Part shown: piece by piece, positions 9,974 through 20,670 of the stretch | Numbering within the stretch: the stretch's first letter is position 1 | How the letters are laid out: every line of letters starts with the position of its first letter | NCBI GenBank assembly: GCA_014654705.1 | Contig: JACVZY010000032.1 | Coordinates: 1 to 32,332 of the forward strand | From: Ignavibacteria bacterium | Lineage (GTDB): Bacteria > Bacteroidota > Ignavibacteria > Kapaibacteriales > UBA4661 | Direction: 5' to 3' | DNA: 32,332 nt | Notes under the pieces: generated by a model | What the model was told of the DNA's origin: nothing | Seen by the model: only the letters and a program-made list of their open reading frames with translations | The model's database searches: none | Made by a program: the position numbers and the translations under genes

Positions 9974-12900
9974 ATGAACAAGCAGACAGACCCTCAAGCC
10001 GACACTGCACTCTTACGCCAACGTGCCGAGGAAATCTTGCAAGCAAAACTTCAGAATTCTCCCCTGACAGACTCCGTTGAGGAGTTACAGCATCGCCTGC
10101 TCTCCGCAGAAAGGCGTGCGATTGAACTGGAGTTACTTCTTGAAGAAAAAAAACAACGCCACAGGCAGCAAATACAATTCCAAGCCCAACTTCTTAATGC
10201 AGTCGGGCAGGCAGTGATTGCGACGGATATTCAAGGCAATATTACCTATTGGAACCCTGCCGCAGAGACATTGTACGGTTGGAGTGCTGAGGAGGTTTTA
10301 GGGCGAAATATCGTGGAAACAACCCCATCACAAGCGACAAAAGAGCAGGCAGAAGAAATCATGCAGTGCCTCATGCGTGGGGAGTCGTGGTCGGGAGAAT
10401 TTTCGGTGCAACGCCGCGATGGTACCATTTTTCCGGCACAAGTTGTTGATACACCTATTTTTTCTGAATCCGGCACGCTCGTCGGCATTATTGGTGCCTC
10501 CTACGACATCACCGAGCGCAAGCAGGCGGAAACACAACTCTTGCACAGGAATAGAGCGCTGGCAGAATTTCACAATTATGTGCAAAGTGCTTCTATTGTC
10601 ACCAGAGCCGATAAACGAGGGAATATCACCTACGTCAACGAAAATTTCGTCGCCATCAGTGGATATAGCGCGGCAGAGCTTACCGGGCACAATCACAATA
10701 TCATCAATTCCGGCCACCACCCACGCGAGTTCTGGACGGCAATGTGGAAGAATATCTCTTCCGGTAAGCAATGGCGCGGAGAAGTAAAGAACAAAGCCAA
10801 AAATGGAACGTTTTATTGGGTGGATACTTTCATCATGCCGTTGCTGGATGAACGTGGTGAAGTTTATGAGTACCTGTCTATTCGCAACGACATCACGCTA
10901 CGCAAGGAAATGCAAGAGGAGATTTTGGCTCAGTATCGCTTCATCAAAACCATCACCGAAGCACTTCCGAGCATGACGGCATACTGGTCATCCGATTTAC
11001 GTTGCACCTTTGCTAATGCTTCCTATCTGGATTGGTTTGGCAAAACGTCTGAGGAGATGATTGGTATTGATTTGCACGATTTGCTTGGGGAAGCACTTTT
11101 CAAGAAAAATGAGCAGTACATCGTTGGCGCATTAGCCGGAGAGCGGCAACAATTTGAACGCACGTTGGTCAAAGCCAATGGTGAAGTAGGCTATACACTT
11201 GCCCAGTATATTCCCGATATTTCCGGCGGGCAGGTGCTCGGTTTCGTGGCTGTGGTCATGGACGTTACGGAGATTAAGAAAACTCAAGTGAGCCTTGCAC
11301 AGGCACAGCACTTAGCGCACATAGGCAGTTGGGAGTTACATCTGGCTACTCAAACTCTGACGTGGAGCGACGAAGAGTATCTTCTTTACGGAGAAGACAT
11401 CCATTCATACACGCCAAGTTTTGAGGGCTATCTGGGGTATTTATCCAAAGAAGAACAGGCTCGAATGAGAGCATTAGTGAAAAATTCACTTGCAGATGGG
11501 ATTGAAGGCTTTGTCGTGGAACACGAAATCACGCTCAAGAACGGCACAAAACGATTTGTGGTTGAAAATGCGGTCATCGTGTACGATGCTCAGAAACAAC
11601 CAATCCTAATGTATGGCACCACACAAGACATCACCGAAAGCAAAAAAGCCAAAGAAGCACTGGCAAGGAGCGAGCGGCGCTATCGTTCTTTTGTCGAATT
11701 GCAAAGCACCTACTTTATTCGTACGGACTTGGAGGGTTTCTACACCTACGCTAACCCTACCATGCTGAAAGACTTTAGTCCAGGTGGTGAGCCTATTATC
11801 GGCAAACACGGATTCACCCACATCATACCCGAAGACCATTCAAAAGCAAGAGACGCTTCAGAACGCTGCCTCCAAACTCCGGGCGTACCCATATCGGTAT
11901 CGTTCAGGAAACCACACGTATCGGGTCGCATTTTTTGGACGGATTGGGAGTTCATTGCCATTACCGACAGCGATGGATTGGTTTCAGAAGTTCAATGTGT
12001 TGGTCATAACATCACCAACCGAGTGCTTGCCGAACAGCTATTGTCGCAAAGTGAAGAAAAGTATCGGTCAATGGTACATAATATCGCTGATATTATCACA
12101 CTCATTAATGCTGAGGGTATTATTTTATATGAAAGTGCTTCTATTCAAAACATTTTAGGGTACGATGAACATGAACTTTTGGGTAAGCATATTTTTGAAA
12201 TTATTCATCCTGACGATATAGCAAATGTTGGGGCAAGGTTTCAGGCGGTTACAGCGAATCAAGGGAGCGGTCAAGTGGTGGAATTTCGATGCTTGAATAA
12301 GCAAGGAGAATATACATTCTTAGAGGCGCAGGGAAATAACCAGCTTGATAATCCGGCAATACAAGCAATTGTAGTGAATTCACGCGACATCACGCAGCGT
12401 AAAAAAGCCGAGCAAGTACTGGAGCAAATGAATGAAATGCTGGAACTGCGCGTAGCAGAGCGCACCGAGCAGCTGATGCTGCTTGATAAAGAAAAAAATG
12501 AGTTTCTAGGAATTATCGCCCACGATCTTAAAAATCCTCTCGCCGGTATTCGGAGTGGAGCAGAAATTATTGAGCGCTATTTTACGAAAGAAGAGGGAAT
12601 TTATCGATTCACCCAAGCAATTATCAAAAGCGTTGACCAGATGCTTGAACTTATTCAGTCATTGACTGAGGAGCATCGCATCGAAAACGGCAGTTTTACA
12701 CTCACCTTCGACGTACTGCCTCTGACGATGATAGATGAGATTGTTGCCCTTAATCAGATGCACGCAATAACAAAAAATATCACCCTCCACTACGAATGCC
12801 CCACCGAATCGGTCTTTGTGTTGGCAAACGACCTCGCGATTCGGCAGATATTAGACAATCTTATCTCCAACGCCATCAAGTATTCTCCGCCCTTCAAGCA

Positions 12901-13183
12901 AGTACATATTCGGCTTTTGCAAGCAGAGACCGTGCGGATTGAAATTCAAGACGAGGGACAAGGACTAAGCGAAATAGACAAACAAAATCTCTTCCAAAAA
13001 TTTACCCGTCTCTCGGCAAAACCGACTGCGGGTGAGAGTTCGAGCGGTCTGGGGTTGTTTATCGTAAAAAAACTGGTAGAGCTACATCACGGGAAGATCT
13101 GGTGCGAAAGCGAAGCAGACAAAGGCATACCCGGAGCAATCTTTATTGTTGAATTTCCATTACCTCCGCAGACAAGCTTCTAA
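9974..13183 (+). CDS. Six-PAS soluble hybrid-free histidine kinase
   Basis: A 1069-residue protein without membrane segments or a receiver. An N-terminal coiled coil (about 1-65) is followed by six PAS domains at roughly 70-185, 195-310, 320-435, 445-555, 570-685 and 695-815. Most end in the linker DIT(E/Q)RK or DITLRK. The kinase core follows: His850 in IIAHDLKNPLAG, N box DNLISNAIKYS, and G box SSGLGLFIVKKL (around 1025) ahead of ELHHGKIW. All catalytic boxes are intact. The first PAS (VIATDIQGNITYWNPAAETLYGWSAEEVLG) is close to the third PAS of the LytTR protein at 3131, suggesting exchange or duplication of sensor modules within this block. The gene sits 420 bases upstream of the cytochrome operon on the same strand, so control of that operon is possible but unproven. 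Its response regulator is not fused to it. Confidence 0.92.
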   Translation: MNKQTDPQADTALLRQRAEEILQAKLQNSPLTDSVEELQHRLLSAERRAIELELLLEEKKQRHRQQIQFQAQLLNAVGQAVIATDIQGNITYWNPAAETLYGWSAEEVLGRNIVETTPSQATKEQAEEIMQCLMRGESWSGEFSVQRRDGTIFPAQVVDTPIFSESGTLVGIIGASYDITERKQAETQLLHRNRALAEFHNYVQSASIVTRADKRGNITYVNENFVAISGYSAAELTGHNHNIINSGHHPREFWTAMWKNISSGKQWRGEVKNKAKNGTFYWVDTFIMPLLDERGEVYEYLSIRNDITLRKEMQEEILAQYRFIKTITEALPSMTAYWSSDLRCTFANASYLDWFGKTSEEMIGIDLHDLLGEALFKKNEQYIVGALAGERQQFERTLVKANGEVGYTLAQYIPDISGGQVLGFVAVVMDVTEIKKTQVSLAQAQHLAHIGSWELHLATQTLTWSDEEYLLYGEDIHSYTPSFEGYLGYLSKEEQARMRALVKNSLADGIEGFVVEHEITLKNGTKRFVVENAVIVYDAQKQPILMYGTTQDITESKKAKEALARSERRYRSFVELQSTYFIRTDLEGFYTYANPTMLKDFSPGGEPIIGKHGFTHIIPEDHSKARDASERCLQTPGVPISVSFRKPHVSGRIFWTDWEFIAITDSDGLVSEVQCVGHNITNRVLAEQLLSQSEEKYRSMVHNIADIITLINAEGIILYESASIQNILGYDEHELLGKHIFEIIHPDDIANVGARFQAVTANQGSGQVVEFRCLNKQGEYTFLEAQGNNQLDNPAIQAIVVNSRDITQRKKAEQVLEQMNEMLELRVAERTEQLMLLDKEKNEFLGIIAHDLKNPLAGIRSGAEIIERYFTKEEGIYRFTQAIIKSVDQMLELIQSLTEEHRIENGSFTLTFDVLPLTMIDEIVALNQMHAITKNITLHYECPTESVFVLANDLAIRQILDNLISNAIKYSPPFKQVHIRLLQAETVRIEIQDEGQGLSEIDKQNLFQKFTRLSAKPTAGESSSGLGLFIVKKLVELHHGKIWCESEADKGIPGAIFIVEFPLPPQTSF

Positions 13184-13604: not shown

Positions 13605-13973
13605 ATGCGAAAAATATATGGCTTTGTACTCTTCTCTGGCTTGATATTCGCTAGCTTTGGTAGTCGGCTTTCCGCACAGAGTGGCGCAGACGGGAAAAAG
13701 ATTTTCTTGGATAATAAATGCAATGCTTGTCACTCAATCACTGCTTTGAATATTGCGGTCAAAAAGAGTGCCGATGAGGAAAAAAGCGACAAAGAGGCAC
13801 CGGATTTATCCGGAATTGGTCTTGAGCGTAATGCGGATTGGCTGACCAAATACTTGATGAAGAAAGAGTCCATTAAAGGCGAAAAGCATTTGAAAAAATT
13901 CAAGGGTAGCGAAGGCGACCTCGCAGTGCTGGCACAGTTGCTGGAAACCCTCAAAACAAAGCCCAAGAAATAA
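13605..13973 (+). CDS. Monoheme class I cytochrome c
   Basis: A 122-residue protein with a signal peptide (MRKIYGFVLFSGLIFASFG..., cleavage near SAQS) and one heme site CNACH at about residues 40-44. It has the class I pattern APDLSGIG after the heme and a C-terminal helix (EGDLAVLAQLLETL). It is probably a soluble periplasmic carrier. The position where a distal Met is expected reads KGEKHLKKFKG. The only nearby Met is in KYLMKKES, so the sixth ligand could be that Met or the His of EKHLKK. As the first gene of the multiheme operon, it may shuttle electrons between the membrane tetraheme protein and the decaheme protein or a terminal enzyme. Whether electrons flow out of or into the cell cannot be told from sequence. 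Confidence 0.9.
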   Translation: MRKIYGFVLFSGLIFASFGSRLSAQSGADGKKIFLDNKCNACHSITALNIAVKKSADEEKSDKEAPDLSGIGLERNADWLTKYLMKKESIKGEKHLKKFKGSEGDLAVLAQLLETLKTKPKK

Positions 13974-14075
13974 GTCGTGCGACCATTTGTATTTCTGCGG
14001 TGAACCTTGCAAATGCAATATGTGCCTCAAAGAGCGCTACCGCTTTTGTCCATTTTTTTCAGGGAGGTTGTTACG

Positions 14076-14720
14076 ATGAGTATGTTTTTAATTAGTGGCG
14101 TCATTGCTATTGTGATTGCAACGCTTCTTTTGCTGGAATTTAAGCCTGCCCTTGCTCAAGAGCAAGGAGGTAAAATACTCGCCTTTGCGGCTATGTTCCT
14201 TTTGCCTACTGCTGCTATGGTAATGGGGAGCGCGGAACATCTGGAGCGATCGAAGCAAACAGAATTTTGTCTGTCGTGCCACCCGATGCACGATTACGGA
14301 AGAAGTTTGCTCGTGGATGACAAAGAATTTGTTCCTGCAAATCACTTTCAGAACAAGCGTATTTCCCGTGACCAAGCCTGTTTTACCTGCCACACCGATT
14401 ACACCATGTATGGCGACTTTTCGGCAAAAATTCGCGGCGTCAAACACCTCTACGTCCAATACTTGGGCACAATACCCGACACGCTCAAGCTCTACACTCC
14501 ATACAACAACCGTGAATGTTTGCAATGCCACGGAGACGCACGTACATTTGAAGGAAACCGCCATCATAAAGAAACAGATACCACTCTTGCGGCAATGAAA
14601 GACAATCGTCTTTCGTGCCTCACAAGCGGGTGCCACGACGTGATTCACAACATCCGCGAGGTGCGCCAGATGAAAGACGACGAACTCTGGAAAGGTGGTG
14701 TCTATGCAAAAGCGCACTAA
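14076..14720 (+). CDS. NapC/NrfH-like membrane tetraheme cytochrome (quinol-cytochrome link)
   Basis: A 214-residue protein. Two hydrophobic stretches (about 3-20 and 34-52) precede a periplasmic domain with CLSCH (65-69), CFTCH (102-106), CLQCH (148-152) and a last site CLTSGCH (181-187) with four residues between the cysteines. The start of the first site, FCLSCHPM, fits NapC/NirT/NrfH proteins, where the Met two residues past the CXXCH His is an axial ligand. Those proteins take electrons from menaquinol and pass them to periplasmic cytochromes (CymA does this for MtrA in Shewanella). I chose the ATG at 14076 because AGGGAGG lies 8 bases before it. An upstream in-frame ATG at 14007 has no ribosome site. 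It overlaps the next gene by 17 bases. It is the likely quinone-pool end of the conduit, by inference. Confidence 0.85.
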   Translation: MSMFLISGVIAIVIATLLLLEFKPALAQEQGGKILAFAAMFLLPTAAMVMGSAEHLERSKQTEFCLSCHPMHDYGRSLLVDDKEFVPANHFQNKRISRDQACFTCHTDYTMYGDFSAKIRGVKHLYVQYLGTIPDTLKLYTPYNNRECLQCHGDARTFEGNRHHKETDTTLAAMKDNRLSCLTSGCHDVIHNIREVRQMKDDELWKGGVYAKAH

Positions 14721-14928
14721 ACAACGCATACGCATTGCTGCATTCCTAATAACTGTGGGAATGGTACTGGAGTTTGCCTCGCTGATGTGGATAGGACCAT
14801 CAGCATTTTTAGTATTCATTGGTGGAGGGGCATTTATCTGCGTAGGTGTTGGTTTGTACCTCTTTATGCTTTTTATAGCAGGTAGGAAACAACCGCATAA
14901 TGAAGCACCGGAAATCAGCGCTTCATAA
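14704..14928 (+). CDS. Small two-helix membrane protein of the cytochrome operon
   Basis: A 74-residue protein with a basic N-terminus (MQKRTKQRIR), two transmembrane helices (about 9-29 and 33-58, with a GGG turn region) and a polar C-terminal tail. It starts inside the end of the tetraheme gene, with AAAGGTGG about 6 bases before the ATG, so the two are translationally coupled. It has no Cys or His and so binds no heme. I do not recognise the family. Coupling suggests it assists the membrane cytochrome, as a small subunit or assembly factor, but this is inference. Confidence 0.75.
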   Translation: MQKRTKQRIRIAAFLITVGMVLEFASLMWIGPSAFLVFIGGGAFICVGVGLYLFMLFIAGRKQPHNEAPEISAS

Positions 14929-14942
14929 AAAATGCAGTAAGG

Positions 14943-14973
14943 TTGGTGCCCTCAAAACAGGTTTGTAGCTTTT
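14943..14973 (+). promoter_or_regulatory. Possible internal promoter ahead of the decaheme gene
   Basis: TTG at 14943-14945 and TAGCTTTT at 14966-14973 (seven of eight matches to TAnnTTTG) are separated by 20 bases, in the 153-base gap before the decaheme cytochrome. It would allow the mtrA/mtrB-like pair to be expressed apart from the first three genes. Weak on its own. Confidence 0.3.
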
Positions 14974-15000
14974 TCGATTCTATTTCACTACACAATTCTA

Positions 15001-15055
15001 ACCGCGTCATCAAGCAATAGTCTTGCTTGCTGCGGTAGCATTGTGTCTTTTTTTT
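15001..15055 (+). terminator. Hairpin plus T run inside the cytochrome operon (attenuator-like)
   Basis: An upper stem of 7 perfect pairs (15011-15017 with 15023-15029, 5-base loop) sits on a lower stem of 5 pairs (ACCGC 15001-15005 with GCGGT 15032-15036) across an internal loop. A run of eight or more T residues follows at about 15048-15055, although 11 bases separate stem and T run. It lies between the small membrane gene and the decaheme gene. It could act as a partial terminator setting the ratio of the two halves of the operon, or as a stabilising leader structure. Confidence 0.45.
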
Positions 15056-15081
15056 ATTTAATATCAAAGGCGGGTATTTTC

Positions 15082-16065
15082 ATGAGAAATATTGTCTTAT
15101 TGTTTTGCTTTCTGTGCATTTCTGCTACGTCGTTTGTAGCCATGAAAACGATGGAAGACGGCAAATTGGAGGCATCGGCGTTGCCCGCTCTATCGGCATT
15201 TTCAGCGCATGGCTCGACCGTAGTCGCTACTGCTGAAAGAGACACAACGGCACTCAAGCCGCTGGTTTCCTACAAACGTGAAGATTGTATGGAGTGCCAC
15301 GAGGACGAAGTTGCTTCCTTTGAACTTACCTCGCATAGTAAATCGTGGAAAGCAGGAACCGGCTGTGAAAGCTGCCACGGAGACCTTGCAGCACATTTGA
15401 AGAACCCGAACATACGCGGCACTATTGAGACCATGCGTAAGAAGTCCTCCTTTGCCTCATCTGATGCCTGCTTAACGTGCCACGAAAAAGCTGGAGAACA
15501 GCAGCATAACGCCTTGAGTGAGCACACGAGAGCTGGCGTGGCGTGCGCTTCCTGCCATACTGCGCATCCGACTGCAGAGCATAAAAAAGCAATGACCTCC
15601 AAAGGACTCAGCCCGATGCACAAAAACAATCAGTCTGAACTGTGCATGTCGTGCCACAAAGCAACAGAAGCGCAGTTCGCCCAGACGACGCACCATCGCT
15701 TGCGCGAGGGTGTCATGGAATGTACAAATTGCCACAACCCCCATGGTTCTGACCAATTCCGCCAGCTCCGCATGGATAAAACAGGGGTCTGTGTTCAATG
15801 TCACGAAGACAAACGAGGACCATTTGTATTCATGCACGGCGCTTCTCTTGGCGATGGATGTATGTCCTGCCATGAGTCGCACGGTTCGGGCGCACGGAAT
15901 ATGCTCAAAACCCGCGACCCGCGCACTCTTTGTGTGAGCTGCCATTCGCGTGAAAGTGCAGCGGGTGTACCGCACGGACGCGCCGGATTACAAGACACCG
16001 GAGACTGCACACGCTGCCATTCTGAAATTCACGGTTCTAATGTCAATCCTTATTTCACCAACTAA
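15082..16065 (+). CDS. Decaheme periplasmic c-type cytochrome, MtrA/DmsE/PioA family
   Basis: A 327-residue protein with an N-terminal signal (MRNIVLLFCFLCISATSFVA) and exactly ten CXXCH heme sites, starting at residues 69, 95, 130, 155, 188, 214, 237, 260, 284 and 309. Length, even spacing and paired repeats such as CTNCHNPHGS and CMSCHESHGS are typical of MtrA and DmsE proteins. These form a heme wire inserted into the MtrB-type barrel, carrying electrons across the outer membrane. The ATG at 15082 is chosen because the signal peptide begins there. A GTG at 15043 has no ribosome site. The porin gene follows after 13 bases, the pairing that defines these conduits. Direction of flow (metal or electrode reduction versus Fe(II) oxidation) cannot be read from the sequence. 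Confidence 0.92.
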   Translation: MRNIVLLFCFLCISATSFVAMKTMEDGKLEASALPALSAFSAHGSTVVATAERDTTALKPLVSYKREDCMECHEDEVASFELTSHSKSWKAGTGCESCHGDLAAHLKNPNIRGTIETMRKKSSFASSDACLTCHEKAGEQQHNALSEHTRAGVACASCHTAHPTAEHKKAMTSKGLSPMHKNNQSELCMSCHKATEAQFAQTTHHRLREGVMECTNCHNPHGSDQFRQLRMDKTGVCVQCHEDKRGPFVFMHGASLGDGCMSCHESHGSGARNMLKTRDPRTLCVSCHSRESAAGVPHGRAGLQDTGDCTRCHSEIHGSNVNPYFTN

Positions 16066-16078
16066 CGAAGGAAACGCC

Positions 16079-18406
16079 ATGAAAAAGCTCACACTCTCTC
16101 GTTCAAGGCTCGGTGTTTCTGGTTGGATCTATCGCACCGCGCAACTGGCACTATTGCTATTCACTTGTGTTTGCACTGCTTTTGTATCGCAAGCGTCATC
16201 ACAAGACAAAAAAATGCCCGGAATTACCATAGGCGACTACCGATATTCGGGAGACCTCACGCTCGGCTATCGAACGCTGAATTTGAGCGGTCTGGACGGA
16301 CGCAGCGATTTCTGGGCAGAGCGCCGATATTACGAGGCGTATAACTTCCGCAGTGGAGTTCGTCTGACGGACATCAATCTTTTTGGCGAGCGCCAGCAAG
16401 GCACACAAACAGGGCTTTTCGACGAATTATATCTAAAAGCAAGCGGCATCGGTGATCCGTACACCAATGCCATGTTTCGGATGCGTTCGTTCAAAGGGTA
16501 TGATTTGAAAATCTCATACACCAAAGCTGATTATTTTTTGAACAGAAACGATTCGCTTTATACCGGATTACACAAATTTGATATGCGCCGCGAGATGCTC
16601 AACGCTTCGCTCACAGTTCCCTTTTCAGACGCTTTTGGTCTAGAACTGCGCTACTCCGGCAATGGTCGTTCCGGCACCATGACTTCCACATTTTCTCCGC
16701 ACATTGAAGGAGCATCCGGTACAGCAACAGCATTTTCAGGCGTGTACGCTGGGTACACACGGGACAATTTTTTCTGGATGAACACTCCGCGTAATGATTG
16801 GACGAACACCTTTTCAGGGAATCTGAAGTTTAGTTTGCCTTCGCATACAACCATTATCGTTGGTGGAGGTGCGCGTTTGTTTTCACAGAATATGACACCA
16901 GCGCCAGAAAATTTAACCTCATTGAACTACAGACCCGCATCACTTACGAATGAGCTGGGGATTGTAGGCTTAAATCCTCGCAATGAGCGTCTTACTCAGT
17001 TTGCATGGCAGGAGAAACGCTCTACTTCCACCCCCTTCGTCTTTGCTGAAGCAGTAACCAAACCCACCTCATGGCTTTCGCTCTCTGCTACTGCACGAAT
17101 GGAGTTTTTAACTGGCGAAACAAGTATAGGCGGCGGATGGGGAGGACTCGTGCGCAGGGCATCAACCCCGGCTACTGCTGCTGCTGTTCTCCGAGCATAC
17201 AGGATTGCTGAAACGGGCACTGTAACAGACAAATTGAATAGGACTCTGCTGTCTCTTCTAGCTACCGCTCGTATCACCGACCAACTGCATTTCACGCTAA
17301 ACTACCGTTATGATTCCGAAACGCAAGACCTCATCGGAAAGTACGCCATCGCTATCGATACCTCAGCCAATCAAAATCCAGTGTATAGGAAAGCAGGACG
17401 CGACAGCATCCAAAATTTGGAAACAAATCTCCGCATGAACATTGTTTCCCATACGATTTCACCGCAGCTTGTTTATATTCCTCTGGCAAATCTAAACTTG
17501 CGGGCGGGAGTGCAATACTACGTCCGCACGCCGGAGATACGAAGACTAGAAGAGGGAGTATCGGACAGCAACTTGGCAGCGACTCTTTCCAGGCGCACAA
17601 CAACGCTCTCTCCCTTTTTTAGCGCATTCTACCGACCTGTGCCAGAAATACGCTTGAGAGCAAATTTCCAAACCTACACTAATAGCGCCTACTGGGAAGG
17701 TACTTCTACTATAAGCCCTCAATTTACAAGACTTATACCTGATACTCGCACAAATTACGGCGCTTCGATTGATGTCAATCCGATAGAAGATTTTACCATT
17801 AGTGTACGATGGAATGCAGACAATGGGCAAAGCGACCTCAGTTTGGGCTATGCGAACGCTAGACTGACGGCGGTAAAGGGCGATTTGACGATGAACAATA
17901 AATCAACGGGACTAACGGCATCGCTCAGCTATACGCTGAACGAAAAGACACGGCTTACTGTGACCGGACAGTACCAAGATCGCACATTTACTCTGCCCGC
18001 TTCGTTTACTAGAGGTGCTGTCATTTTCCCCACGCCACCTTTTGGTGATTCGCTAACCGTGCTCGTTAGCAATAACACAATTGACCGATACCTTGATGCT
18101 TCCTTTGAAACGACCGCCATTCGGAATCTACGACTTGCCGGCGGCATTTCGTATCTTAGTTCTACCGGCGGCGGCGGCATGACTCCGGACATTCGCTTGC
18201 CTGCTGCGCAGGATGTTACCAAAATTGGTGGACCGTACACCATGACCGATATTCACGGACAGGCAAAGTATCAGCTCTTCACCAATCTAGCGCTCATGGT
18301 GGATTATAGATATGTCGTTCTTAATGAACTAGTCGCTACGCCTTATACAGGGCTGAATAACTTTACCGGAAGTATGTTTTTGTTTAGTCTCGTTGTGGGA
18401 CTATAA
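16079..18406 (+). CDS. MtrB/PioB-family outer-membrane porin of the electron conduit
   Basis: A 775-residue protein with a long signal peptide (residues 1 to about 42, hydrophobic AQLALLLFTCVCTAF). The rest is a large beta barrel of alternating strands with aromatic girdle residues, ending in the terminal strand MFLFSLVVGL. Early segments GDYRYSGDLTLGYRTLNLSG and RSFKGYDLKISY are of the kind seen in MtrB/PioB proteins, which have about 26 strands and sheath the decaheme cytochrome. The mature part has no Cys, so the N-terminal CXXC of Shewanella MtrB is absent. GAAGGA lies 7 bases before the ATG at 16079. The 13-base gap from the decaheme gene and the terminator at 18434 mark it as the last gene of the operon. 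The barrel call is firm. The MtrB family call rests on the pairing plus similarity in style. Confidence 0.85.
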   Translation: MKKLTLSRSRLGVSGWIYRTAQLALLLFTCVCTAFVSQASSQDKKMPGITIGDYRYSGDLTLGYRTLNLSGLDGRSDFWAERRYYEAYNFRSGVRLTDINLFGERQQGTQTGLFDELYLKASGIGDPYTNAMFRMRSFKGYDLKISYTKADYFLNRNDSLYTGLHKFDMRREMLNASLTVPFSDAFGLELRYSGNGRSGTMTSTFSPHIEGASGTATAFSGVYAGYTRDNFFWMNTPRNDWTNTFSGNLKFSLPSHTTIIVGGGARLFSQNMTPAPENLTSLNYRPASLTNELGIVGLNPRNERLTQFAWQEKRSTSTPFVFAEAVTKPTSWLSLSATARMEFLTGETSIGGGWGGLVRRASTPATAAAVLRAYRIAETGTVTDKLNRTLLSLLATARITDQLHFTLNYRYDSETQDLIGKYAIAIDTSANQNPVYRKAGRDSIQNLETNLRMNIVSHTISPQLVYIPLANLNLRAGVQYYVRTPEIRRLEEGVSDSNLAATLSRRTTTLSPFFSAFYRPVPEIRLRANFQTYTNSAYWEGTSTISPQFTRLIPDTRTNYGASIDVNPIEDFTISVRWNADNGQSDLSLGYANARLTAVKGDLTMNNKSTGLTASLSYTLNEKTRLTVTGQYQDRTFTLPASFTRGAVIFPTPPFGDSLTVLVSNNTIDRYLDASFETTAIRNLRLAGGISYLSSTGGGGMTPDIRLPAAQDVTKIGGPYTMTDIHGQAKYQLFTNLALMVDYRYVVLNELVATPYTGLNNFTGSMFLFSLVVGL

Positions 18407-18433
18407 TACCGCTTACAACTTTCTCATTCTTAG

Positions 18434-18474
18434 TCCAACGATACAGATTAGATTTGTGTCGTTGGATTTATTTT
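18434..18474 (+). terminator. Rho-independent terminator of the cytochrome operon
   Basis: The arms 18434-18445 and 18455-18466 pair over 12 bp with one T-G wobble around a 9-base loop, followed by TTTATTTT (18467-18474). It lies 28 bases past the porin stop codon. Confidence 0.85.
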
Positions 18475-19434: not shown

Positions 19435-20670
19435 ATGCTCACACTGAATCAAAAAATCAAGAATCGTATATATCGCTTGCTGCTGTGCGGCACTGCGGCA
19501 TTGCTTCTCAATGTTTACGGTGCATCGGCGCAGCCGCTACAATGGCAGCAGACAAATGGTCCTTTGGGTGGAGAAATACAATGTTTTGCGGTAAACGGTA
19601 CGACACTTTTCGCAGGAACATACGGTGTTGATGTTTTCCGCTCAACGAATAATGGTGAAAACTGGACCGCAGTTAAGTTGGGATTTAATGTTTTTTCTCT
19701 CATGGTGAGCAACTCAATACTCTTTGCAGGAACAGAGGGTCGTGGTGTTTTCCGTTCAACCGACAACGGCGTAACTTGGACGACACTCGGTTTGGGTTTG
19801 AATAACGGAAGTGTTTTTTCTCTGGCATCAAACGGCACAGCTCTCTTTGCCGGGACAGATGACCGTGGTATTTTCCGCTCAACAGACAATGGTACAACTT
19901 GGACAGCTGTCAATACGGGATTGAGTAGCAAGTTTATCCACTCTCTCGCGGTGAGCAGCACGGCGATATTTGCAGGGACAGTGGATAGTGGTATTTTCCG
20001 CTCAACAGACAATGGTACAACTTGGACAGCTGTCAATACGGGATTGAGTAGCAAGTTTATCCACTCTCTCGCGGTGAGCAGCACGGCGATATTTGCGGGG
20101 ACGGTGGATGGAGGTGTTTTCCGCTCAACAGACAATGGTACAACTTGGACAGCAGTTAATACAGGATTGGAGAGTAAATTTATCCTTTCTCTCCTAGTGA
20201 GCGGGACAACGCTCTTTGCTGGAACTTCTGAAGGTGTTTTCCAGTCCGACAATTCTGGTACAAGCTGGAGAATGGTTAATACAGGATTGACATATAAAAG
20301 CATCCTTTCCCTAGCTGTGAGCGGCACGACGCTCTTTGCAGGAACGGATGGCGGCGGCGTTTTCCGCGCAGCGCTCTCCGGCTCAACATCAGTGAAAGAG
20401 CAGTCGGAACCATCTCTAAACTTCACACCCTTTCCCAATCCATTTTCCGACCAAACAACCCTTGAATACGACCTTTCCACATCACAACACGTGCGTATAG
20501 CAATTTTCTCACCGCTTGGGCAATTACTCTTCACGTTGGCAGACGAATGGCAGCAAGCGGGTCGGCACAGTCTCCCACTTGATATGAATGGTTTTGCTAG
20601 TGGTGCGTACATTGCTCGTTTGCAAGCGGGCACTACCACGCAGACCTCGCTTCTTCGCTTGGTGCGCTAA
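19435..20670 (+). CDS. Secreted seven-repeat beta-propeller protein with T9SS sorting domain
   Basis: A 411-residue protein: signal peptide (residues 1 to about 33, cleavage after ASAQ), then seven repeats of about 41 residues. Each carries (L/I)FAGT and most a VFRSTDNGxTWTAV block of the BNR/sortilin-like or YCF48-like propeller type, so a seven-bladed propeller is expected. The last 85 residues match a type A T9SS C-terminal domain: a FPNPFSD start, then VRIAIFSPLGQLLFTL, GRHSLPLDMNGFASGAYIARLQAG and a final basic LLRLVR. Such proteins cross the outer membrane through the type IX system and are anchored or released at the surface. The ligand is unknown. A pair of near-identical 123-bp repeats inside the gene shows recent expansion. 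A long open frame on the opposite strand is an artefact of the repeats. Confidence 0.88.
   Translation: MLTLNQKIKNRIYRLLLCGTAALLLNVYGASAQPLQWQQTNGPLGGEIQCFAVNGTTLFAGTYGVDVFRSTNNGENWTAVKLGFNVFSLMVSNSILFAGTEGRGVFRSTDNGVTWTTLGLGLNNGSVFSLASNGTALFAGTDDRGIFRSTDNGTTWTAVNTGLSSKFIHSLAVSSTAIFAGTVDSGIFRSTDNGTTWTAVNTGLSSKFIHSLAVSSTAIFAGTVDGGVFRSTDNGTTWTAVNTGLESKFILSLLVSGTTLFAGTSEGVFQSDNSGTSWRMVNTGLTYKSILSLAVSGTTLFAGTDGGGVFRAALSGSTSVKEQSEPSLNFTPFPNPFSDQTTLEYDLSTSQHVRIAIFSPLGQLLFTLADEWQQAGRHSLPLDMNGFASGAYIARLQAGTTTQTSLLRLVR
19867..20112 (+). repeat. Two near-identical 123-bp tandem repeats within the propeller gene
   Basis: Units 19867-19989 and 19990-20112 are identical apart from a few bases at their right ends, such as cagggacagtggatag versus cggggacggtggatgg. 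A third, more diverged copy begins at 20113. The unit is exactly 41 codons, one propeller blade, so copy number changes keep the frame. Confidence 0.9.

Follow-up and report, generated by a model that had tools for sequence, protein, structure and literature searches.

A putative electron conduit with an unrecognised porin candidate in a Kapaibacterium-like bacterium

The window considered here, which takes in the initial 32,332 bases of contig JACVZY010000032.1 (68,309 bases in all) from a 5.7 Mb assembly of 118 contigs, carries a run of five genes for a monoheme cytochrome c, a membrane tetraheme cytochrome, a small membrane protein, a decaheme cytochrome and a 775-residue protein of unrecognised family. 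Taken as a whole, the locus is best explained, with good though not overwhelming likelihood, as a trans-envelope electron conduit in which the decaheme cytochrome would sit within an outer-membrane barrel and electrons would flow mainly inwards. To judge from its genes, it is probably a porin–cytochrome conduit of known type, whose porin is new or has diverged past recognition. The host is a Kapaibacterium-like bacterium of the Bacteroidota, an assignment drawn from its relatives and not from ribosomal RNA: in named records, the nearest relatives of the decaheme belong to an 'Ignavibacteria bacterium' metagenome-assembled genome (78% identity) and to two such genomes of 'Candidatus Kapaibacterium sp.' (68% and 76%). 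An earlier interpretation made from the letters of the window alone (the sequence-only reading) had proposed a Bacteroidota/Chlorobiota-like host, with which these relatives, pointing to Bacteroidota near Kapaibacterium, agree. Below, labels of the form G000 denote genomes and those of the form L026 loci; f1 is the window's family and f14 a second family.

The decaheme cytochrome and its distribution

The ten-heme protein, which the sequence-only reading had called MtrA/DmsE-type, scores over the TIGR03508 cut-off (194.5 versus 192.2 bits). Its best solved relative is chain A of 6r2q (E-value 1.5e-31), which we take to be MtrA, the molecule name in the structure file being plainly wrong. The entry is given as the Mtr complex of S. 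baltica in PMC12133095. Nineteen decahemes were aligned: 11 from the group with the new porin, seven partnered with PF11854 porins and one from Photobacterium. Ten heme-proximal histidine columns are common, in sequence, to all 19, MtrA included, and ten more histidine columns to 16-19 of them. In an unrooted tree, the decahemes of the new-porin group and the MtrB-partnered decahemes lie on opposite sides of one branch, with support of 100/99. The tree has a very long Photobacterium end branch and 10 of its 16 forks are open; a midpoint root serves for drawing only, and the main split alone is used here. To account for a single split of this kind, it is enough that the partner changed once or that the lineages diverged once over a long span. 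A structure prediction for the decaheme from a three-row alignment gave a predicted local distance difference test score (pLDDT) of 34.1, too low to be of use. The Geobacter GSU2203 family was rejected for this protein, the score of 166.4 bits lying under the cut-off of 325.

Across 391 genomes of the class, TIGR03508 finds a match at an E-value of 0.001 in 339 and exceeds its cut-off in 16. The decaheme's partner is the unrecognised porin in nine of these and a PF11854 porin in the other seven; in G153 the decaheme is cut by a contig end and falls under the cut-off. A profile of the unrecognised family found 13 copies in 11 of the 391 class genomes, and matched three of 395 phylum genomes; it occurs only in f1 and f14. 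A search with the single sequence gave eight of 149 genomes. The decaheme is present in four of ten genomes of the window's family and three of eight within the genus, and its distribution is thus patchy.

The two genes are closely coupled wherever this can be checked. The tight pairing pointed out in the sequence-only reading, 13 nucleotides in the window, holds in 12 of 12 checkable porin copies across the two families, each starting 8-15 nucleotides past the decaheme stop codon, whilst the thirteenth copy (G107) lies at a contig edge with its upstream side not visible. Both G040 and G030 carry two decaheme–porin pairs. At L022:1892-5349 (G040), an iron-sulfur protein, an NrfD-like membrane protein and a monoheme cytochrome adjoin the doubled pair. 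At loci L097 and L098 (G183, G384), DmsE-family proteins with eleven hemes are paired with PF11854 porins, and next comes a protein which by eye resembles the cupredoxin-like protein of L021, a locus of G059; L097 also carries a flavoprotein similar to the one in L021.

The presumed porin

The sequence-only reading had assigned the 775-residue protein to the MtrB/PioB type, and here it finds no support. Neither the protein nor any of ten homologues (0 of 11) matches PF11854 (MtrB/PioB) or an NCBIfam porin model at E-values up to 1, which weighs against the interpretation of the locus as a conduit. The PF11854 model, with a curated cut-off of 23 bits, works: it gives 510.6 bits for Photobacterium MtrB and 270-403 bits (403.4, 336.4, 269.8, 282.3, 298.5, 328.7 and 307.1) for the porins that adjoin seven sister decahemes of the class. 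A search of the host genome with PF11854 at an E-value of 0.001 found nothing. No other family scores over its cut-off for the 775-residue protein either, a different transport family included, so that the match which the sequence-only reading had named as one half of its refutation was not seen. Solved structures yielded no match up to an E-value of 1 with the single sequence and none up to 10 with an 11-row profile.

Hydrophobic alternation suggests that the protein is probably an outer-membrane barrel. In the 11-row alignment this signal stands above shuffles by z values of 3.7, 4.8 and 7.2 at three thresholds, as compared with 1.8-5.6 in MtrB sets and -1.7 to 1.3 in three non-barrel sets. 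Candidate strands number 23, 27 and 34 by threshold, against 7.8, 14.0 and 22.6 in shuffles; the score is home-made and calibrated solely on these sets, and speaks for a barrel but not for any given number of strands. One row of alignment A1 (L022:11649-14033) includes 20 residues upstream of the likely start. MtrB itself is a 26-strand barrel.

The protein could be a true MtrB/PioB homologue which has diverged past detection, leaving an ordinary MtrAB pair, and we see the case for this as evenly balanced. Outer-membrane barrels diverge fast. The protein occupies the same gene position, 8-15 nucleotides past the decaheme as compared with 11-13 (four cases) and 41 (one case) in the five measured of the seven PF11854 pairs, and is similar in size and strand periodicity. 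Profile–profile comparison, in which the new family was set against three groups of MtrB sequences, cuts both ways: the nominal P values (0.008, 0.05 and 0.016, uncorrected) lean towards common descent, whilst the corresponding probabilities of 4.9, 1.1 and 2.8% lean away from it, when two in-class PF11854 sets give 100% with each other and, against Photobacterium MtrB, 96% for the smaller and 53% for the larger. Furthermore, none of the 11 sequences scores with PF11854, yet their decahemes are readily recognised. Such comparison fades with distance, however, so that missing similarity is no proof of separate origin. That the barrel does not descend from MtrB/PioB at all, one Bacteroidota lineage having swapped the porin and kept the wire, is a tentative proposal which we rate as rather doubtful. 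An improbable account dispenses with the conduit and makes the decaheme a periplasmic NrfB-like electron store beside an ordinary uptake or nutrient porin. It can appeal to weak matches of the decaheme to NrfB models and to a large neighbour without an assigned family, but the NrfB models remain far under their cut-offs where TIGR03508 passes its own, the pairing is tight in all checkable copies of two families, and the seven sister decahemes adjoin PF11854 porins. Extracellular dimethyl sulfoxide respiration was dropped as a candidate function, no DmsAB-like gene being noticed by eye among the open reading frames (ORFs) of the window, where no search aimed at such genes was made.

The other cytochromes and the gene order

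The tetraheme cytochrome scores over the PF03264 (NapC/NirT) cut-off (40.3 versus 24.1 bits) but does not reach the stricter thresholds that NCBIfam sets for NrfH, NapC and TorC. It has two hydrophobic N-terminal segments. The NapC/NrfH-like membrane tetraheme of the sequence-only reading is supported. Close homologues (E-value below 1e-70) occur in eight genomes, all eight of them porin-bearing; the hypergeometric probability of 1.3e-14 assumes the same 391 genomes in both searches and ignores kinship, and the 1e-70 limit was chosen post hoc. The tetraheme alignment, A3, contains one wrong-frame row (L034), which is used for no conclusion. Homologues of the small 74-residue protein lie directly 3' of the tetraheme gene in L057, L024, L025, L026 and L027.

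The monoheme protein, with one CXXCH motif and a score over the PF00034 cut-off (33.5 versus 21.3 bits), is the cytochrome c that the sequence-only reading described. There are only two histidines in the whole protein. Because His95 is more conserved than Met85 (nine against six of ten aligned sequences, which include the window protein and several paralogues of one genome), a bis-histidine ligation is suggested. In G059 (L021) the genes after the decaheme–porin pair encode a homologue of the monoheme, then a Rieske protein and a fusion of cytochrome b with cytochrome c (these two at L021:5550-7616), neighbours which suggest that the monoheme may deliver electrons to a bc-type complex.

The wider locus holds together less tightly than the pair. 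A check proposed with the sequence-only reading was a look for the same five-gene order in related genomes; it is found in G010 (L026), of another family, and this recurrence makes the arrangement more than chance. In G030 (L024) the order is present with an inserted stretch. A number of observations must be added to the missing porin match as points against the conduit as proposed. The complete order occurs in two of the 11 porin-bearing genomes (G000 and G010). G149, of the window's family, keeps the last four genes, the monoheme being missing there; G020 has the tetraheme and monoheme on a separate contig; G040 and G050 have theirs several kilobases off, as regards the tetraheme; G059 has no tetraheme match; and G153 and G155, both of the window's genus, have none anywhere in the genome. 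Contig ends interrupt the conduit loci of G153, G155 and G107. Monoheme homologues are found in 45 of 235 class genomes, just seven of them among the 11 porin-bearing ones, and are not tied to the conduit. Among solved structures, the tetraheme has no match up to an E-value of 1 and the monoheme six weak matches (best E-value 0.0098), with MtoD not among these. The porin prediction from a three-row alignment, with a pLDDT of 26.6, is unusable for a fold search. In the host genome the decaheme is the sole match to PF09699; this check is weak because the model can miss multihemes, failing to report the window's tetraheme and passing a real MtrC on the score of the entire protein but on none of its separate stretches. 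Finally, in the Mto pathway discussed below, the partner of ImoA and MtoA is PmcA and not MtoD, according to PMC13390432.

Other cytochrome genes were seen in relatives. Near the conduit in f14 lie proteins of 445-495 residues with one N-terminal CXXCH (IPAFARKY..C..CH-like), at L021:3502-4893, at L022:5390-6754 and as similar ORFs in L024 and L026. Two of these were scanned and matched nothing in Pfam or NCBIfam; they are reminiscent of Cyc2-type fused cytochrome–porins. The Cyc2-like one-heme protein of these relatives was found in none of the ten genomes of the window's family, a set without a positive control, so that this negative carries no weight. In G114 a separate cluster (L062) encodes an MtrC-like ten-heme protein (PF22113, 169.1 bits) and a 433-residue possible porin, along with seven-heme and four-heme cytochromes; it also includes proteins distantly related to the monoheme and the tetraheme of the window.

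Comparison with known conduits

In composition the locus resembles the Mto cluster of Sideroxydans lithotrophicus ES-1 (slit_2494-2498), given in PMC12016527 and PMC13390432 as PmcA, ImoA/CymA, MtoB, MtoA and MtoD. A single decaheme, a single porin, a tetraheme of the inner membrane and monoheme cytochrome are common to the two. The conserved second histidine of the window's monoheme is a possible parallel to MtoD, for which an unusual bis-histidine ligation is described (PMC4412085). By contrast, the window's porin has no MtrB/PioB sequence match, there is one monoheme where Mto has two, and no MtoD appears among the monoheme's sequence matches in solved structures. The window has the additional 74-residue membrane protein and a tetraheme distinguished by a CX4CH site and its two hydrophobic N-terminal segments.

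With the MtrCAB system of Shewanella the locus shares the decaheme family and a porin gene directly downstream, and its ten heme sites align to those of Photobacterium MtrA; it differs in having no adjacent MtrC and in its porin, which PF11854 does not match. The CXXC of Photobacterium MtrB is missing from the window's porin, but this is no distinction since the seven in-class PF11854 porins are also without it. PioAB of phototrophic Fe(II) oxidisers (PMC6831781) is likewise a two-part decaheme–porin uptake conduit without MtrC, of a porin family which the window protein does not match. Closer in host are the MtrB-type and OmbB-type complexes whose genes are reported from Ignavibacteria in PMC7399161 and PMC4245776. 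These use known porin families. The seven in-class decaheme–PF11854 pairs lie on a separate decaheme branch from the window's.

Direction of electron flow

In the proposed conduit the decaheme would run through the barrel, which would insulate it in the way that MtrB insulates MtrA, and the ten hemes of the decaheme would pass electrons between surface and periplasm. The monoheme would carry electrons, joined in some relatives perhaps by a bc-type complex whose genes adjoin the conduit; the tetraheme would be the exchange point with the quinone pool. Less certainly, the main direction would be inward, the electrons coming from Fe(II) minerals or from some other donor outside the cell, as in Mto, with oxygen as the possible final electron acceptor.

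Uptake appears somewhat more likely than export. It is favoured a little because the host genome has two COX1-family oxidases, of cbb3 and aa3 types by eye, and the conduit no multiheme neighbour; and it is favoured because the set of genes is like that of the Mto cluster. Among ORFs of at least 60 residues in the window, the decaheme and tetraheme are the only ones with more than two CXXCH motifs, so that a surface MtrC/OmcA is not adjacent, and no other ORF with at least three occurs in the window or in the part read of the rest of the 68-kb contig. That MtoA and ImoA were detected on magnetite but went undetected with Fe(II)-citrate (PMC12016527) also supports uptake, and so, weakly, does the fact that PF09699 matches no protein of the host genome but the decaheme. 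Export, in which the tetraheme would oxidise menaquinol and, at low oxygen, electrons would leave the cell for Fe(III), an electrode or some other outside acceptor, is a serious competitor that we place a little short of even. NapC/NrfH-type proteins usually oxidise quinol, a cbb3-type oxidase (again by eye) suits low-oxygen life, and the weakness of the genome-wide multiheme check leaves room for a distant surface cytochrome gene. ImoA, furthermore, can run outward, replacing CymA and exporting electrons in Shewanella (PMC13390432). What tells against export is the same evidence that favours uptake, namely the lack of an adjoining surface multiheme cytochrome gene, the presence of oxidases and the likeness to the Mto uptake cluster.

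Organisation of the locus and neighbouring features

Table 1. Genes and terminator-like site of the proposed conduit (window coordinates)
Feature	Position	Strand	Description
Monoheme cytochrome c	13605-13973	+	122 residues, one CXXCH; presumed periplasmic shuttle
Membrane tetraheme cytochrome, NapC/NirT-NrfH type	14076-14720	+	214 residues, three CXXCH and one CX4CH; presumed quinone side
Small membrane protein, no family over cut-off (Pfam, NCBIfam)	14704-14928	+	74 residues; 17-nucleotide overlap with tetraheme gene
Decaheme cytochrome, DmsE/MtrA family (wire)	15082-16065	+	327 residues, ten CXXCH
775-residue protein, unrecognised family, probably outer-membrane barrel (presumed sheath)	16079-18406	+	13 nucleotides past decaheme stop codon
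Terminator-like hairpin, then T-rich tail	18432-18468	+	17-pair stem; consensus match only

The sequence-only reading described five genes in a single orientation closed by a terminator at 18434, and this arrangement stands (Table 1). From the coordinates, the successive gaps are 102, -17, 153 and 13 nucleotides, and co-transcription of the five genes is plausible. Terminator-like sites number 11 in all against 6.3 +/- 2.3 in shuffles, so that the hairpin alone is modest evidence. On the 5' side lies a large PAS-containing sensor kinase (9974-13183, by eye), and on the 3' side of the conduit genes an AhpD-like protein; neither looks to be part of the conduit.

Elsewhere in the window, about 11 kb from the conduit, a di-heme MauG/MbnH-like protein is encoded at 986-2248 on the reverse strand (TIGR04039, 261.5 bits, under the cut-off of 362.85). 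Repeats that are almost identical to one another (RSTDNGTTWTAVNTGL) occur within a 411-residue protein at 19435-20670, which by eye ends in a domain of sorting-like type at its C terminus. On the host contig near the window's end, a tandem repeat at L058 4218-4508 runs into a stretch of N.

Implications

Electron conduits have been recognised in related hosts for some time. In 2014 Ignavibacterium was found to have Pcc clusters (PMC4245776). A 2020 paper reports an MtrB homologue from Ignavibacteria, together with complexes of both the MtrB and the OmbB type (PMC7399161), and iron-cycling genes have been reported from deep-mine Ignavibacteriales (PMC8478452). The expectation of the sequence-only reading that a Bacteroidota host would widen the range of such loci must therefore be qualified: such a widening is only partly new, since the 2020 report had already placed such complexes in Ignavibacteria. 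A survey that sought the mtrCAB cluster reports it from three phyla; its main text does not contain the stems Bacteroid-, Chlorobi, Ignavibact- or Kapabact- (PMC8805035). Within the open-access literature, which leaves most subscription papers and all preprints uncovered, Kapabacteria were never joined with extracellular electron transfer, nor cytochrome with Kapaibacterium or Kapaibacteriota. Kapabacteria and cytochrome do occur together in 11 papers, one of which has neither 'multiheme' nor 'extracellular electron' in its main text.

Surveys of extracellular electron transfer seek MtrB/PioB-like porins or the MtrCAB set, and conduits whose porin is invisible to the PF11854 model would be undercounted. 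The class also offers a natural experiment, with decahemes over the family cut-off accompanied by a recognised MtrB-type sheath in seven genomes and an unrecognised one in nine, so that the requirements of a sheath become testable. Were the porin indeed swapped, the sheath would be a replaceable part and MtrB-based searches would miss whole groups of conduits. Thus the parts list for trans-membrane electron wires may be wider than thought.

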